64,000 nt of DNA from assembly GCA_913057235.1 (NCBI GenBank), contig CAJXNI010000016.1:1-64000 (forward strand). The letters run 5' to 3'. This document shows positions 48,073 to 54,365 of the stretch, piece by piece (positions within the stretch are counted from its first letter, which is position 1; every line of letters starts with the position of its first letter). The translations under genes were made by a program, and so were the position numbers. The stretch is from an uncultured Bacteroidota bacterium (GTDB lineage Bacteria > Bacteroidota > Bacteroidia > Flavobacteriales > Schleiferiaceae). The notes under the pieces are model-generated. The model was not told where the DNA came from and made no database searches. It saw nothing but the letters and a program-made list of their open reading frames with translations.

Positions 48073-48200
48073 AAAGGAATATTTAGCTAATACTATTGGT
48101 AAATCCTCAAAATTGGCAACATTTTTTGAATTAGCAGTAGCCTCACTGGCAGGGATAAGGGCATTTCATATATTGGCCCTTACTAATAGGTTTCTTAGTC

Positions 48201-49416
48201 ATGCTCGTCTCTATTCTAAATGGATTGCTAGCGGTGGTTCTAATCTACCTCTCTATCAATAGCTTTTACAATTTTATTTTTGGTTTGACATCGGCTTTAA
48301 AGCCAAAACAAGCCACAAAAATTACTGAGGGCAAGAAACATAAAATTGCAGTTATAATACCAGGCTAAAAAGAAGATGGGGTGATTGTGCCTGTGGTAGA
48401 AAAGACACTGGAACAAGATTATAATTCAAACTTTTATGAGGTAATTGTCATTGCAGATTCTTTTCAAGGTGAAACTTTAAAACTTTACGCGAACCGCCCA
48501 TTTCAACGTTGATTGTTGAATTTGAAAAAAGTACTAAGAGCAAGGCTCTCCGGGCCGGTATGAAACATATAGGTATTGGGATGTGGCCGTGGTGTTAGAC
48601 GTTGACAATGTTATGGCCACTGATTTTTCAAGTAAAATAAATGAAGCTTTTAAGCGGGGCTACCAAGTGGTGCAAGGCCACCGCGTTGCTAAAAACCTAA
48701 ATGGAGCGTTTGCTTTATTAGATGCGGCCAGTGAGGAAATAAATAACTCCATTTTCAGAAAAGGTCATCGTGCCTTGGGTTTGTCCTCAGCTTTGATTGG
48801 TTCAGGAATGGCCTTTAATTATAAACTATTTAAAGATTTTATGGCGGGTGTAAATGCAATTGGAGGTTTTGACAAGGAGCTAGAACTCAAGCTAAACCGT
48901 GAAAAAATTACCATTGAATACTTGAGTGACGCCCTGGTGTATGACGAAAAAGTTCAGGATAAACAAGTCTTTGAAAATCAGCGCAGGCGCTGGCTTAGTG
49001 CCCAGTTCATTTATTTTGGTCGCTTTATTTTTCCAGCGCTGTGGCATTTAATTACGCGTTTTAACGTAGGTTTTTTTGACAAAGCCTTTCAGCTGGCTTT
49101 GCTCCCACGCGTGCTGAACTTAGGACTTAACATCATTTTCTGGGCCTTCAGCTTAGTCTATTTTTTGCTGGACTTTGGGCAACCTCCGCTCTATTTTGCG
49201 TCATTTACGCTTTGGAGTATCAATTTGGTGGCTGTACTTTTAGCTTTGAGTTTTAGCTTACCCAAGAAAATGTACAATGCCCAAATGTTAAATGCTGTAT
49301 TAAGCCTCCCTCAAGCGGTGATTACCATGTTTACATTACTGTTCAAGTTAAAAGGGGCCAATAAAAAATTTATTCACACCCAGCATAAACACATAGAAGA
49401 AGATCTTCCCCAATGA
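48201..49416 (+). pseudogene. Membrane family 2 glycosyltransferase, stop codon and two frameshifts
   Basis: An N-terminal membrane helix (from ATG 48201), then HKIAVIIPG, are followed by TAA at 48366-48368 where Tyr is expected (PAYKEDG), after which the same frame goes on as KEDGVIVPVVEKTLEQDYNS. The frame shifts near 48487 (PPISTLIVEFEKSTKSKALR) and again near 48575 into DVAVVLDVDNVMATDF, the DxD metal motif. From there (48583) the gene is intact to 49416, with QRRRWLSAQFIYFG and three C-terminal helices. Each shift equals a one-base loss. Intact relatives are processive-type GT2 enzymes making cell-surface polysaccharide. Confidence 0.88.
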
Positions 49417-50006
49417 TGGCTTCCCCTCAAATATGGCTGGTTTTTATAGCCTATGCAGCGTCTTCATTAGGCCTATGGGCTCAAAATGTTTCGGCAGAGG
49501 AACAGTTTTTAACTCAGCTTCATGAGGGTGCACTTTTGGTGCGATTGCAGGACCGGACCCAAAGCATTCAAAAATTAGAAGAGCGCGGCTACCCCGATAG
49601 GGCAGCTGAACTTCGAGAGCAGCAATACTTAGAAAATAAAGAAACCATTTTGTCTTTCAAAAACACCTTCACCTTTGCACCGGTTTTCTTTTTTTATGCC
49701 AAAGACTCAGAGAAAGTACGGAATCAGCAATTAGAGGGAGTATTGTTTAAGGCCGATCAAACCCCGGTTCTCAGCCAGGAGATTCCAAAGACTTTTTACA
49801 CTGCTGAGTTTTCAGAAACTTCTCAACTAGGTATAACAGGTTTAATTATAATGGACCACAAACTTATTCCGCTTAAAGCGCCTCTACCCCATTTTGAGCG
49901 TAAATTTATTTTGTTAGGCCTTATATCCCGGTCTAAAGCCGAAATGGCCAAAGCCTATAATCAGGAGCTTTGGGAAAAATACCGTTTTCACTTTCCAGAT
50001 CGTTAG
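49413..50006 (+). CDS. Hypothetical secreted protein
   Basis: 197 aa. N-terminal signal peptide (WLVFIAYAASSLGLWAQ), then an alpha-helical region with many charged residues (about 25-75) and a mixed alpha/beta domain. ATGA overlap with the decayed glycosyltransferase suggests it belonged to the same polysaccharide operon. No family recognised. Its 3' end overlaps the converging gene by four bases. Confidence 0.68.
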   Translation: MMASPQIWLVFIAYAASSLGLWAQNVSAEEQFLTQLHEGALLVRLQDRTQSIQKLEERGYPDRAAELREQQYLENKETILSFKNTFTFAPVFFFYAKDSEKVRNQQLEGVLFKADQTPVLSQEIPKTFYTAEFSETSQLGITGLIIMDHKLIPLKAPLPHFERKFILLGLISRSKAEMAKAYNQELWEKYRFHFPDR

Positions 50007-51010
50007 ACCTCAGAATCAGGGTGGTAATCTTCAGGAGATTTACCAAAAGTCCAGGCCACCGCTTCCTTTATCGTTTTTATGTCAGGAGGTACGCATAAAA
50101 AATAATTGCGATGAGTAGTAGGGCATATCACTTTGGCAAATTGCAAATGGTCTTTAGCAAGCTCATCGAAATGTGCAGTTCTATACAAAGCCTGCCTGTT
50201 GCCTTGGCGGTCAGTCTCAGCATCAACCAACTGTAATTCAAAAAGAGCGGCAAAACGCTCAGCACCCAAAATTTCCTGGTAACACCTGCGCACCTCTGCG
50301 TTGCGTTCTTGCATCACCTCATGCCGGGTTATGCCCTCGGGGTTAAGTATCAAATCTTCAGGCACTTCTACCCCATGCCAGTGATATATTTTCAGGCCTT
50401 CCCAGGCTAAAGCTGGCCGACCTTCGTGGTGCAGTTGCCCCAGTTCGTCTAGATGCAAATGGCTAGGCAAAGGACACCAAATCACTGCATTTTGATAACA
50501 CTGCGCCAGCATGAGCCCTCCCTGTAAGAGGTGAAGTAAATGTTGATACCCCTCATTTGTATGTACGCTTTGGTAATGAAAGTTGGCCCACTGTTGATCA
50601 AAATAGTGCGGGTGGTGCGCCTCTAAACCTGTCTTTAAACCAGGATGATTTTTCTTTACATGTCTTTGTAAAGCCTGATGGATTACCAACTGCCTACTTT
50701 GGGCCTTTTTCATGAACGGCAAAATAGCCTCTGACGCTACAGCAGCCTCACTTAAATGCTTGGCTACCTTTTCATTTATATGCGTCCATACGCGATAATT
50801 TAAAGAAGGCCCCAAGTCAAGGGTAGCTGAATGGGCTGAGTTTAACTTTACCGTTTCCCAAGCTTCAAAATGCTGATAAAAAACTACCGGATTTTGGACA
50901 CAAATTACCTTGGGTGCAGGTAATTGCAAGGCTTCGTAAAAAAAGGAAAAGGCCTCATTCATCAAAGTATTTTGAGGCTTAGTAAAAGTCAACTGGAGAG
51001 GCAGCTCCAT
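50003..51010 (-). CDS. DUF6745-like protein, partner of RQGDVL-family gene
   Basis: 335 aa, soluble, His-rich. The C-terminal half has a strong pattern: LHHEGRPALAWEGLKIYHWHGVEVPED, then ITRHEVMQERNAEVRRCYQEIL and GNRQALYRTAHFDE, which I associate, from memory, with the DUF6745 family, often encoded with leucine-rich repeats; no such repeats are seen here. Last gene of a four-gene minus-strand run, ten bases after the RQGDVL-family gene. No reaction is known for the family. Confidence 0.7.
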   Translation of the reverse strand: MELPLQLTFTKPQNTLMNEAFSFFYEALQLPAPKVICVQNPVVFYQHFEAWETVKLNSAHSATLDLGPSLNYRVWTHINEKVAKHLSEAAVASEAILPFMKKAQSRQLVIHQALQRHVKKNHPGLKTGLEAHHPHYFDQQWANFHYQSVHTNEGYQHLLHLLQGGLMLAQCYQNAVIWCPLPSHLHLDELGQLHHEGRPALAWEGLKIYHWHGVEVPEDLILNPEGITRHEVMQERNAEVRRCYQEILGAERFAALFELQLVDAETDRQGNRQALYRTAHFDELAKDHLQFAKVICPTTHRNYFLCVPPDIKTIKEAVAWTFGKSPEDYHPDSEV

Positions 51011-51019
51011 AGCCTGTTT

Positions 51020-51364
51020 TTAGTCTCTGATTATTTCAATGGCCCGTGCATAAGGATTGAATTCCCTTTGCCGAATCACCTTGTACTTTCCAGGTTTTAA
51101 AAGCACATCTCCATGTTCTTGGGTGGGCGCTTTGGTCTCGGTGTTCAAATGTTTTAGAGTAGACTCACTTTCAATATCTAAAAAGTGCGAGATAGTATTC
51201 TCTGGCCCAAATTGTGGGTTTTCATAAATGGCCACATCACCCTCTATGAAGTGACCATGGTAGCGACCCTCTCCCCTCACCAACAGGGTCTCATGGCTAG
51301 GTTTGGCTTCTTTTTCAATTTCTATTACACGTTCAATTAAAACGTCCCCTTGTCTGTACTGCAT
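51020..51364 (-). CDS. RQGDVL-family small protein, possible metal site
   Basis: 114 aa. Opens MQYRQGDVLIERV, then YHGHFIEGDVAIYE with an HxH, later TQEHGDVLLKPGKYKVIRQREF near the C-terminus. This start, the xHGH segment, the late xEH, and the final VIRQREFxP recur in a widely distributed uncharacterised family (recalled from Actinobacteria and Cyanobacteria). The spaced His residues on a beta-rich cupin-like scaffold suggest metal binding. Encoded directly before the DUF6745-like gene, as in other phyla. Confidence 0.72.
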   Translation of the reverse strand: MQYRQGDVLIERVIEIEKEAKPSHETLLVRGEGRYHGHFIEGDVAIYENPQFGPENTISHFLDIESESTLKHLNTETKAPTQEHGDVLLKPGKYKVIRQREFNPYARAIEIIRD

Positions 51365-51749
51365 TTTTTCTTACTTCATTTTTGCCTTTAACCGCTGTGG
51401 CGGAAAGAGGTTTATTTCCAAATTTAAAAAACAAAGCACAACTAGCGGCATAGGCCACTATATCCCATAAATCTCTGTGATGACGTAAGTCGTAACTTGG
51501 ATAAATGAATTCAAAAAACAGGCTGTACCAAAGCCCAAAAAAAATGATGTATGAAACAGGAAAGGTATAGCCAGGGCTGCTTAAGAGCTTTTGAAAAAAA
51601 GCCAGGGCGGCACCCAATACTATTGGACCGCAAAGCAAGTCATCTAAATAGGCGTGGACAAAGGTAAGAGTGACGTATTGCTCAAGCACCTGATTGGCCG
51701 CGAACAAAAACAGTGAAATCCAAAACAAAAGACTGAAGCTCTTCCACAT
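51333..51749 (-). CDS. Hypothetical four-helix membrane protein
   Basis: 138 aa from ATG 51749, one base after the TAA of the zinc-ribbon gene. Four hydrophobic segments, aromatic-rich (FPVSYIIFFGLWYSLFFEF, DLWDIVAYAASCALFF). The pattern resembles short Bacteroidota proteins loosely annotated as citrate transporters, a name the size does not support. Its end overlaps the RQGDVL-family gene by 32 bases. Confidence 0.68.
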   Translation of the reverse strand: MWKSFSLLFWISLFLFAANQVLEQYVTLTFVHAYLDDLLCGPIVLGAALAFFQKLLSSPGYTFPVSYIIFFGLWYSLFFEFIYPSYDLRHHRDLWDIVAYAASCALFFKFGNKPLSATAVKGKNEVRKNAVQTRGRFN

Positions 51750-51750
51750 T

Positions 51751-52020
51751 TTAATGTACTGTTGAACTGGCCATTGCGCCAATCATGCTGATAAGCGTGG
51801 TAAAAATCAATTGCAAAAAACGTAAGGTGTGCTTAAAACCCTTTACTATAAAAGGATCATCGGGTTTAAGCTCAATAAATGGCAAACCTTTTAAAGGTTC
51901 TTTTTCCAGTTGCTCCTGCTCGGTTAAATCTCTATTATTTAAACGCTGTGCGCAGTAATGGCAATTAGCATCTTCGCCATTGGTCCAAAATCCGCAATGC
52001 TCACATTTTACCTCTTTCAC
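51751..52020 (-). CDS. Zinc-ribbon protein with C-terminal membrane helix
   Basis: 89 aa from GTG 52020. Residues 5-23 hold CEHCGFWTNGEDANCHYC, a four-Cys zinc ribbon; a charged middle leads into one hydrophobic helix (about 66-86). First gene of the run zinc ribbon, membrane protein, RQGDVL-family, DUF6745-like. Likely membrane-tethered with the ribbon in the cytoplasm. Function unknown. Confidence 0.72.
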   Translation of the reverse strand: MKEVKCEHCGFWTNGEDANCHYCAQRLNNRDLTEQEQLEKEPLKGLPFIELKPDDPFIVKGFKHTLRFLQLIFTTLISMIGAMASSTVH

Positions 52021-52100: not shown

Positions 52101-53450
52101 ATGCAAAAACCCATCAAAGGCTTTTCAAAGCTAACTAAACAGGGCAAAATTGAGTGGCTAACTCATCAATTTTTTAACAGCCCTGAAGAGGCACAAACAC
52201 TGCTGAAAAGCTATTGGCACCAAGAGCCTAAAACCCAAAAACTGCACGATGAGTTTATTGAGAATACGCTCAGTAACTTCTTTACACCTTTTGGCGTAGC
52301 TCCTAATTTTAAAATAGATAATAAGGTTTACGCCCTACCCATGGCCATTGAAGAGAGTTCTGTTGTGGCTGCCGCTGCCAAAAGTGCTTCTTTTTGGTTT
52401 GCCCGTGGCGGATTCAAAACCACCATTGTTTCTACTACCAAAATTGGGCACGTACACTTTATGTACACGGGAAACTTTGATAAACTCAACCAACTTTTTG
52501 AAGCTGAGAAAGCACGCTTTCTTGCAGATACAGAATCAATTACCGCCAATATGCGCGCTCGGGGTGGCGGTATTTTAAATCTTGAGCTCAAAGACAAAAC
52601 CTCCGAGTTAGCCAACTATTATCAGCTGGAAGCCAAGTTTGAAACCTGTGATTCCATGGGAGCCAATTTTATCAATTCATGCCTGGAACAATTTGCACAA
52701 ACCTTGGAAGAGCTAGTGGCAGAATCTGAAATGCTTAGTGAAGAGGAAAAAGATCTACAGGTGGTTATGCGCATTCTTTCCAACTATACTCCTGAATGTC
52801 TGGTGCGTAGTGAGGTTACATGTAAGGTAGAAGAGCTAACAGAAGGTACGGAGATTAGTCCGGCTGAATTTGCCCACAAATTTGAACAAGCGGTAAAAAT
52901 AGCTGAAATAGAGCCTTACCGGGCTACCACCCACAACAAAGGCATTATGAATGGTATTGATGCCGTGGTAATTGCTACCGGCAATGATTTTAGAGCGGTA
53001 GAAGCTGCTTGCCATACCTACGCCAGTAGATCTGGGCAATACCGCAGTTTAACCCACTGTGAAGTAACAGACGGGATTTTCAGATTTTGGATAGAAGTGC
53101 CCTTGGCTTTAGGTACAGTGGGTGGCCTTACCAGTCTGCACCCCATGGTACGCTTTGCCCTGGATATGCTGCAGAAACCTTCGGCTGAAGAACTCATGTC
53201 TATTATTGCCAGCAGTGGTTTAGCACAAAACTTTGCCGCCTTACGTGCTTTAGTAACCACCGGCATACAAAAGGGTCACATGAAAATGCACTTACTTAAT
53301 ATTCTAAACCAATTGGAAGCTACCGAGGCAGAAAAGAAAATTATAATAGAGCATTTTAAAGATAATGTGGTTTCGCACAGTGCGGCCGTTCAAAAATTCT
53401 GCGAGGTACGCGGTATTGAAAATACGCAGCAAATTTTGAAAAACCGCTAA
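52101..53450 (+). CDS. mvaA: Hydroxymethylglutaryl-CoA reductase, class II
   Basis: 449 aa. Class II HMG-CoA reductase motifs: PMAIEESSVVAAAAKSAS (catalytic Glu), CDSMGANFIN, THNKGIMNGIDAVVIATGND (catalytic Lys), GTVGGLTSLHP (dinucleotide site), and GHMKMHL (catalytic His). In Bacteroidota lacking the MEP route it works in the biosynthetic direction, making mevalonate for isoprenoids. Three bases separate it from the GHMP kinase gene. Confidence 0.94.
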   Translation: MQKPIKGFSKLTKQGKIEWLTHQFFNSPEEAQTLLKSYWHQEPKTQKLHDEFIENTLSNFFTPFGVAPNFKIDNKVYALPMAIEESSVVAAAAKSASFWFARGGFKTTIVSTTKIGHVHFMYTGNFDKLNQLFEAEKARFLADTESITANMRARGGGILNLELKDKTSELANYYQLEAKFETCDSMGANFINSCLEQFAQTLEELVAESEMLSEEEKDLQVVMRILSNYTPECLVRSEVTCKVEELTEGTEISPAEFAHKFEQAVKIAEIEPYRATTHNKGIMNGIDAVVIATGNDFRAVEAACHTYASRSGQYRSLTHCEVTDGIFRFWIEVPLALGTVGGLTSLHPMVRFALDMLQKPSAEELMSIIASSGLAQNFAALRALVTTGIQKGHMKMHLLNILNQLEATEAEKKIIIEHFKDNVVSHSAAVQKFCEVRGIENTQQILKNR

Positions 53451-53453
53451 ACT

Positions 53454-54365
53454 TTGAAGCGATTCTTTGCGCCTGGAAAATTACTCTTAACCGGAGAGTA
53501 CGCTGTTTTACGTGGAGCGCAAGCGCTAAGTGTACCCACTTTGTTAGGACAAAGTTTGGGGATTGAAGAGCCCACGACCAATAGCTTTTTACATTGGCAG
53601 GCTTTTACAGAAAAAGGGGAGCTATGGCTAGAGGTGCATTTTAACAAAGCGCTAGAAATTATCCAATGCGCACAGCCTGAAAAAGCCCAAGACCTGCAAA
53701 AACTCCTCAGGCAAGCCCAGGCACTGGGGGGTAGAATACAAGGTCCCCTGTTAGTACAAACGCACTTGCAGTTTAATCGTAATTGGGGTTTGGGTAGTAG
53801 CAGTTCGCTTTGTGCTTTAGTGGCAGAATGGCTTCAAGTACCGGCACTTCCACTTTTTTTTAATGCCTTGGCAGGCAGCGGTTATGATGTAGCCACGGCC
53901 ACCGCCCGCAATCCCATTTTATACCAGCTTGAATCGGCCAAAAAAGGAGTTTTTGAGCCAGTTAGCCTCCCGCCTATCTTACAGAAAAGTGCTTTTTTGT
54001 ATTTAGGTCAAAAGCAAAACAGTGCCCAGGAAGTGGGGAAGTTTAAAAGTCGTAAAGCCCATACAAAAGACACAGCCGCCATATCGGCTTTAAGCCGAAG
54101 ACTTTTACAATGTACGAGCAAGGCCGAGCTTATAAACCTTTTAAAGCAGCATGAAGAGATTACCGCACGAACTGTGGGAAAAGTGCCGGTTCAAGGCACA
54201 CATTTTGCGGACTTTGAAGGTGTCGTTAAATCATTAGGAGCTTGGGGAGGCGATTTTGTTTGGATAGTTGAATCCAAACCGCAACCGCACTACTTTGAGG
54301 ATTTGGGCTATGATGAGCCCATTTCTTTTAACAAGATGATTGCAGGTTCTTATTTTAGCAACTAA
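53454..54365 (+). CDS. GHMP kinase, mevalonate-pathway type
   Basis: 303 aa. Start is TTG at 53454, as the only in-frame option directly after the HMG-CoA reductase stop: KRFFAPGKLLLTGEYAVL is the family opening. ATP loop NWGLGSSSSLCAL; GSGYDVATATA matches the GYD(I/V)-type subgroup found beside class II HMG-CoA reductase in Bacteroidota. Likely phosphorylates mevalonate or phosphomevalonate. The Asp of GYDVA is the probable catalytic base region. Confidence 0.88.
   Translation: MKRFFAPGKLLLTGEYAVLRGAQALSVPTLLGQSLGIEEPTTNSFLHWQAFTEKGELWLEVHFNKALEIIQCAQPEKAQDLQKLLRQAQALGGRIQGPLLVQTHLQFNRNWGLGSSSSLCALVAEWLQVPALPLFFNALAGSGYDVATATARNPILYQLESAKKGVFEPVSLPPILQKSAFLYLGQKQNSAQEVGKFKSRKAHTKDTAAISALSRRLLQCTSKAELINLLKQHEEITARTVGKVPVQGTHFADFEGVVKSLGAWGGDFVWIVESKPQPHYFEDLGYDEPISFNKMIAGSYFSN

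Follow-up and report, generated by a model that had tools for sequence, protein, structure and literature searches.

The DNA analysed here (the window) is a stretch of 64,000 nucleotides from an uncultured member of the Schleiferiaceae (Bacteroidota). Its minus strand carries four same-strand open reading frames from 52020 to 50003, and a re-check of the reading frames confirmed that they are real and correctly placed:

51751..52020, minus strand: zinc-ribbon protein with a GTG start and a CxxC...CxxC pattern; partner of the membrane gene
51333..51749, minus strand: small membrane protein starting at ATG 51749; upstream of the pair and part of a separate two-gene unit
51020..51364, minus strand: RQGDVL protein of 114 aa, predicted to be all-beta and likely metal-binding; first core gene
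50003..51010, minus strand: DUF6745 protein of 335 aa with a variable, mostly helical front (about residues 1-165) and a conserved PF20530 end (171-333); second core gene

An earlier note on this DNA described these genes as a tightly packed four-gene operon, and the packing is as described. The zinc-ribbon stop codon lies 1 nt ahead of the membrane gene's ATG, the membrane gene and RQGDVL overlap by 32 nt, and 9 nt separate the RQGDVL stop from the DUF6745 start. The same four-gene order was found in 7 of the 15 related loci examined, and because of this recurrence the arrangement exceeds chance. Four of the seven belong to the same family as the window (L185, L186, L187, L189) and three to another family of the same class (L195, L196, L197); the joint arrangement is therefore not unique to this genus.

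The zinc-ribbon and membrane genes are a separate unit

Among 88 genomes of the window's family, the membrane gene was detected in 55, the ribbon gene in 33, DUF6745 in 13 and RQGDVL in 8. Among the matches listed, the ribbon and membrane genes are no more than about 1 kb apart in 19 family genomes that have no DUF6745 match; in two further genomes, G060 and G037, the RQGDVL-DUF6745 pair is present but on another contig than these two genes. Outside the class, none of 68 bacterial loci and 1 of 81 viral rows had both ribbon and membrane features before RQGDVL, counting only loci and rows that have an upstream ORF. The zinc-ribbon and membrane genes constitute a two-gene unit of their own, which in this window happens to lie ahead of the pair. 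We rejected them as a general partner of RQGDVL, since they form their own unit elsewhere and are exceptional before RQGDVL outside the class. The 19 genomes with both genes and no DUF6745, and the two with separate contigs, also speak against the suggestion that ribbon and membrane helix are a built-in tether.

RQGDVL and DUF6745 are linked across bacteria and viruses

RQGDVL loci were retrieved by motif patterns, and we studied the best 80 of at least 539 bacterial loci and the best 80 of 317 viral loci. DUF6745 lies directly downstream of RQGDVL in 78 of these best 80 bacterial loci. Of the two exceptions, L045 ends 140 nt past RQGDVL and L073 has no DUF6745. Judged by organism names, these same 80 loci span at least seven phyla, with Chloroflexota, Bacteroidota, Cyanobacteria, Deinococcota, Planctomycetota, Verrucomicrobia, Pseudomonadota and Actinomycetota among the groups represented. 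The earlier statement that the two families occur together in distant phyla was thus borne out far beyond the genus. Adjacent pairs were also seen on plasmids of Deinococcus (two), Streptomyces, Methylobacterium and Skermanella, and in one phage record.

The best 80 of the 317 viral loci contain 82 RQGDVL genes, 51 of which have an adjacent DUF6745 gene by a distance rule. For 30 of the remaining 31 the contig ends within 913 nt, and the last (L136) has a DUF6745 gene that the rule missed. In this sample nearly every viral contig that extends beyond RQGDVL has DUF6745 next, and most contigs that end early already show a DUF6745 front or array; one (L169) has an HNH-like reading frame there instead. 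RQGDVL and DUF6745 are solidly established as a genuinely linked pair, and linkage across many phyla and hundreds of viral contigs makes it very probable that the two share a specific joint job.

Contigs that end just past RQGDVL include L107, L109, L112, L114, L118, L121 and L124. Most likely they end there because the downstream array breaks the assembly, and such breaks could hide RQGDVL-DUF6745 genes in metagenomes. Duplications were also observed in viral loci: the entire pair is duplicated in L156 (9932-12923), and L105 (10362-13112) carries duplicated DUF6745 genes with LRR-like repeats of 60-nt period.

The two genes also share their history. Across 163 non-redundant loci, left from 181 once near-duplicates were taken out, pairwise distance matrices for RQGDVL and DUF6745 correlated with r 0.84, against a maximum of 0.12 in 2000 permutations; for the viral subset of 44 loci the correlation was 0.76 and the permutation maximum 0.34. 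Because these correlations lie far above the permutations, we conclude that RQGDVL and DUF6745 evolve together. Within the window's class, an N-x-E-x-R-R motif in DUF6745 is kept at 10 of 10 loci that have RQGDVL and is altered, truncated or lost at 5 of 5 that lack it (altered in L192, L193 and L194, truncated within the motif in L198, and with only the far end of the gene left in L199). Against joint decay as a general rule, cyanobacterial DUF6745 copies without RQGDVL mostly keep the motif.

Searches that started from DUF6745 showed a rare and patchy distribution. The family was found in 13 of 88 genomes of the window's family, 5 of 396 of its class, and 20 of 196, 20 of 194, 5 of 195 and 3 of 86 genomes of four other groups, all counts including the genome used as search centre. 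RQGDVL was adjacent in 50 of 76 DUF6745-first loci, namely 11 of 17 in the window's class and 39 of 59 outside it (18/24, 15/28, 3/4 and 3/3); the other 26 had no RQGDVL nearby. The cyanobacterial search yielded loci for 28 of 42 non-centre matches. With these proportions we rejected the proposition that DUF6745 always has RQGDVL. Five cyanobacterial genomes had 7, 4, 8, 3 and 2 DUF6745 matches and one RQGDVL each; in G807, G722 and G850, which have 4-8 matches, some of the copies are close together. A profile search for RQGDVL in 13 genomes gave no match in six, a short fragment in one and a copy with an internal stop in another.

Database matches

The Pfam check proposed for the fourth gene settled its family: residues 171-333 match PF20530 (DUF6745) with 91.2 bits and an E-value of 7.3e-26 over profile positions 44-204 of 206; the curated cut-off is 27 bits. 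The entry gives the family's function as unknown and is silent on the RQGDVL partner and on the exchanged fronts described below. The zinc-ribbon, membrane and RQGDVL proteins had nothing above cut-off in Pfam, none of the four window proteins had anything above cut-off in NCBIfam, and anti-phage defence models from PADLOC gave 0 families at E-values up to 1 for all four. Two phage families were matched, both annotated 'unknown function': phrog_27831 by the RQGDVL protein (1.6e-10) and phrog_31813 by the DUF6745 protein (4.5e-5). The RQGDVL match, together with the presence of all four family histidines in the window copy, places the protein in phrog_27831. Unlike these phage relatives, the window copy of the pair is chromosomal. 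In the parts of the literature available to us, we found no description of the RQGDVL-DUF6745 pair, DUF6745, STM4012 or the 'STM4015 family'. One paper was found that names STM4013. As far as that literature goes, what is new is the two-gene module, for which no described relative with a known function turned up, rather than the four-gene arrangement.

Conserved residues and predicted structures

Conservation in the main RQGDVL alignment (the window copy and 102 of 124 non-redundant copies) is partly built in because the loci were fetched by motif patterns. We therefore counted residues in 57 copies reached without the search motifs, all detected with a profile from the first motif-fetched set and left after 8 copies from search-centre genomes were dropped; the denominators are copies with a residue at that position. 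His38 is conserved in 55 of 55, His72 in 56 of 57 and His84 in 57 of 57, and His36 in 48 of 55, which makes three histidines nearly invariant and a fourth usual. Glu83 (54/57), Gln99 (56/57) and Glu101 (55/57) are also conserved. With three nearly invariant histidines and a usual fourth, this residue set has the make-up of a metal site, and RQGDVL likely binds metal. The idea of a His-rich metal module is thus supported for RQGDVL, by its conserved histidine set, and not supported for DUF6745. Across the window protein and 49 of 89 other DUF6745 copies, the histidines of the IYHWHGVEVP stretch that had suggested it are poorly kept: position 210 is His in 2 of 50, and position 212 is His in 32 of 50 and Arg in 15. 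In the same alignment Asn237, Glu239, Arg241 and Arg242 of N-x-E-x-R-R are conserved in 50, 50, 49 and 50 of 50 copies.

The AlphaFold model of RQGDVL (mean pLDDT 86) has ten strands and no helix. Foldseek found no PDB match under E 0.001 for it, and the best score in a VIA structure comparison was Z 3.0, within the range the tool calls common. The DUF6745 model has a mean pLDDT of 79, mostly above 90 in the conserved end and with weak stretches in the front. It had no significant Foldseek match in the PDB, and its best VIA score (Z 4.7, residues 258-323, a lysozyme-inhibitor chain) is again within the common range. Neither protein had a credible match when its sequence was searched against solved structures. 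Cupins are small metal-binding beta-barrels, and RQGDVL resembles them in its all-beta prediction and its set of His-x-His, Glu and a further His. However, two TM1459 cupin rows scored only Z 2.1 and 2.0 in VIA, and with no credible PDB sequence match the similarity is far too weak to place RQGDVL among them.

The front of DUF6745 is exchanged between lineages. Leucine-rich repeats are joined to PF20530 in the Chloroflexota and cyanobacterial examples scanned, a mainly helical front with a short motif was read as common to Actinomycetota, phages and this window, and in phages tandem arrays are joined to the conserved end. PF20530 scored above its cut-off in the window protein and in the array-bearing and LRR-bearing relatives tested.

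Tandem arrays in phages

With a criterion of 60 nt or more and a period divisible by 3, TRF found arrays in 66 of the best 80 of 317 viral RQGDVL loci and in 6 of the best 80 of at least 539 bacterial ones. Arrays were present in 7 of 48 DUF6745-first loci and in 0 of 10 loci of the window's class; the window's own DUF6745 gene has none. The phage arrays consist of tandem coding units of 9 or 12 nt (three or four residues). Variation was scored only within DUF6745 reading frames, which gave 47 arrays with 1409 units; 10 further reading frames had no array. Of the variable sites in the 47 arrays, 119 are nonsynonymous and 15 synonymous. The display residue of four-residue units was mostly Gly (219), Arg (215), Trp (195), Asp (94) or Glu (56). 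Constant bases inside one array are often identical even at synonymous sites, and the constant part differs between phages.

Array content differs within two pairs of contigs that are more than 99.5% identical around the gene (L115/L116 and L146/L147), and a third pair (L155/L170, 94%) differs along the entire array; these are metagenomic assemblies, in which array lengths may be partly misassembled. That arrays change between near-identical contigs, and that nearly all their variable sites alter the amino acid, points to selection for a variable surface. Diversity-generating retroelements likewise focus the diversity of phage proteins on particular residues. The DUF6745 arrays are like these in that respect, but differ, as far as repeat pattern alone goes, in that short tandem units change in number and order. 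We found nothing on the phage array repeat strings or on hypervariable tetrapeptide repeats in phages in the literature accessible to us.

Two types of array turned up in a pattern scan, one in 93 and the other in 85 viral stretches. Sufficient sequence flanked 67 of the array loci on either side; of these, 55 had DUF6745, 53 had RQGDVL and 12 had neither, so we rejected the idea that only DUF6745 carries such arrays. The proteins read among the 12 belong to a second phage protein family, unrelated to DUF6745, which carries four-residue arrays of the same kind (L293, L304, L306, L310, L315, L329, L339, L342, L346, L358); arrays are therefore not specific to the module either. Of this family, the two proteins scanned against Pfam and the two scanned against PHROGs had no match, and Pfam pentapeptide families gave none at E-values up to 0.01 for the two Pfam-scanned members and for four array-bearing DUF6745 proteins.

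A candidate two-component module

Our favoured model, to which we give a probability of roughly 40%, is that RQGDVL and DUF6745 make up one two-component module of a metal-binding subunit and specificity subunits with swappable fronts. RQGDVL would be a small beta-structured subunit that uses three or four histidines to bind a metal. The conserved end of DUF6745, with N-x-E-x-R-R, would work together with it, perhaps in a physical complex, and the exchangeable front (LRR, helical domain or phage array) would pick what the pair acts on. The window copy is a chromosomal, array-free version of this module. As its setting we favour contests between phages, other mobile elements and hosts, because the phage module tends to adjoin replication and recombination genes. 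Even the commonest neighbour PHROGs covered just 2-3 ORFs apiece among the 96 scanned (of 284 phage neighbour ORFs): Erf-like annealing proteins, HNH endonucleases, DnaB-like helicases, integrases and replication proteins. This signal is thin, and we count it against the model. Also counted against it are the DUF6745-first loci without RQGDVL, several of whose cyanobacterial copies keep N-E-R-R, the lack of a solved-fold match in these searches, and the arrays of the second phage family. A more far-reaching version, which we hold only tentatively, is an undescribed recognition system in which a metal-dependent subunit is aimed by interchangeable fronts. Phages would shuffle and expand tandem units with a display residue drawn mainly from Gly, Arg, Trp, Asp and Glu, and bacteria would use an LRR or helical domain, the window's front being a fixed helical one. 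The phage versions offer a clear test bed for what the pair binds, and knowing their binding partners would explain a large uncharacterised set of genes, including those of the window.

A further point against the model is that the neighbourhood of the bacterial loci also fits a biosynthetic role. Genes of the STM4011-STM4015 cluster, which encode two radical-SAM enzymes, a hydrolase, an ATP-grasp-like protein and an LRR protein, are frequent neighbours of the pair in several phyla, with at least one near it in 31 and at least three in 24 of the best 80 of at least 539 bacterial loci, and they occur near it in four of five plasmid loci; NCBIfam names were confirmed for one such cluster. The pair could accordingly be an accessory of this biosynthetic or peptide-modifying pathway, with RQGDVL as a metal-dependent tailoring enzyme. 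Yet the best 80 of 317 viral loci and those of the window's class, which are short (about 3.5 kb), yielded no gene of the cluster, and the cluster is absent from the cyanobacterial, Hymenobacter and Herpetosiphon pair loci examined; the pair therefore works without the cluster there, and we consider an accessory role unlikely. Less likely again, in our judgement, is that RQGDVL serves DUF6745 repeat proteins as a chaperone or assembly partner, stabilised by metal and without enzymatic activity. The single RQGDVL beside several DUF6745 copies per genome is what such a role would predict, as are repeat-like fronts in phages and many bacteria, but the very strong conservation of His, Glu, Gln and Asp seems to us to exceed what a chaperone needs.

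Two adjacent genes with a patchy distribution, found on plasmids and phages, also recall a toxin-antitoxin-like or addiction module. We regard this as improbable, given that DUF6745 or a remnant of it persists without RQGDVL in 5 loci of the window's class, that one RQGDVL accompanies up to eight DUF6745 matches, and that none of the four window proteins matches PADLOC. Most improbable of these readings is the four-gene, membrane-tethered metal complex of the earlier note: the tight spacing and the shared gene order in two families of the class agree with it, but genomes that lack the pair carry the ribbon and membrane genes as a separate unit, and outside the class these two genes rarely precede RQGDVL.

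Genes beside the cluster

On one side of the cluster, a glycosyltransferase-like gene (48192-49416) is broken by an in-frame stop near 48366 and continues from 48583 in a different frame, as a decayed gene or a sequencing error would appear. On the other side (52101-54365) lies a gene pair read as HMG-CoA-reductase-like and GHMP-kinase-like, which several relatives also have next to the cluster, including some whose DUF6745 gene is decayed.
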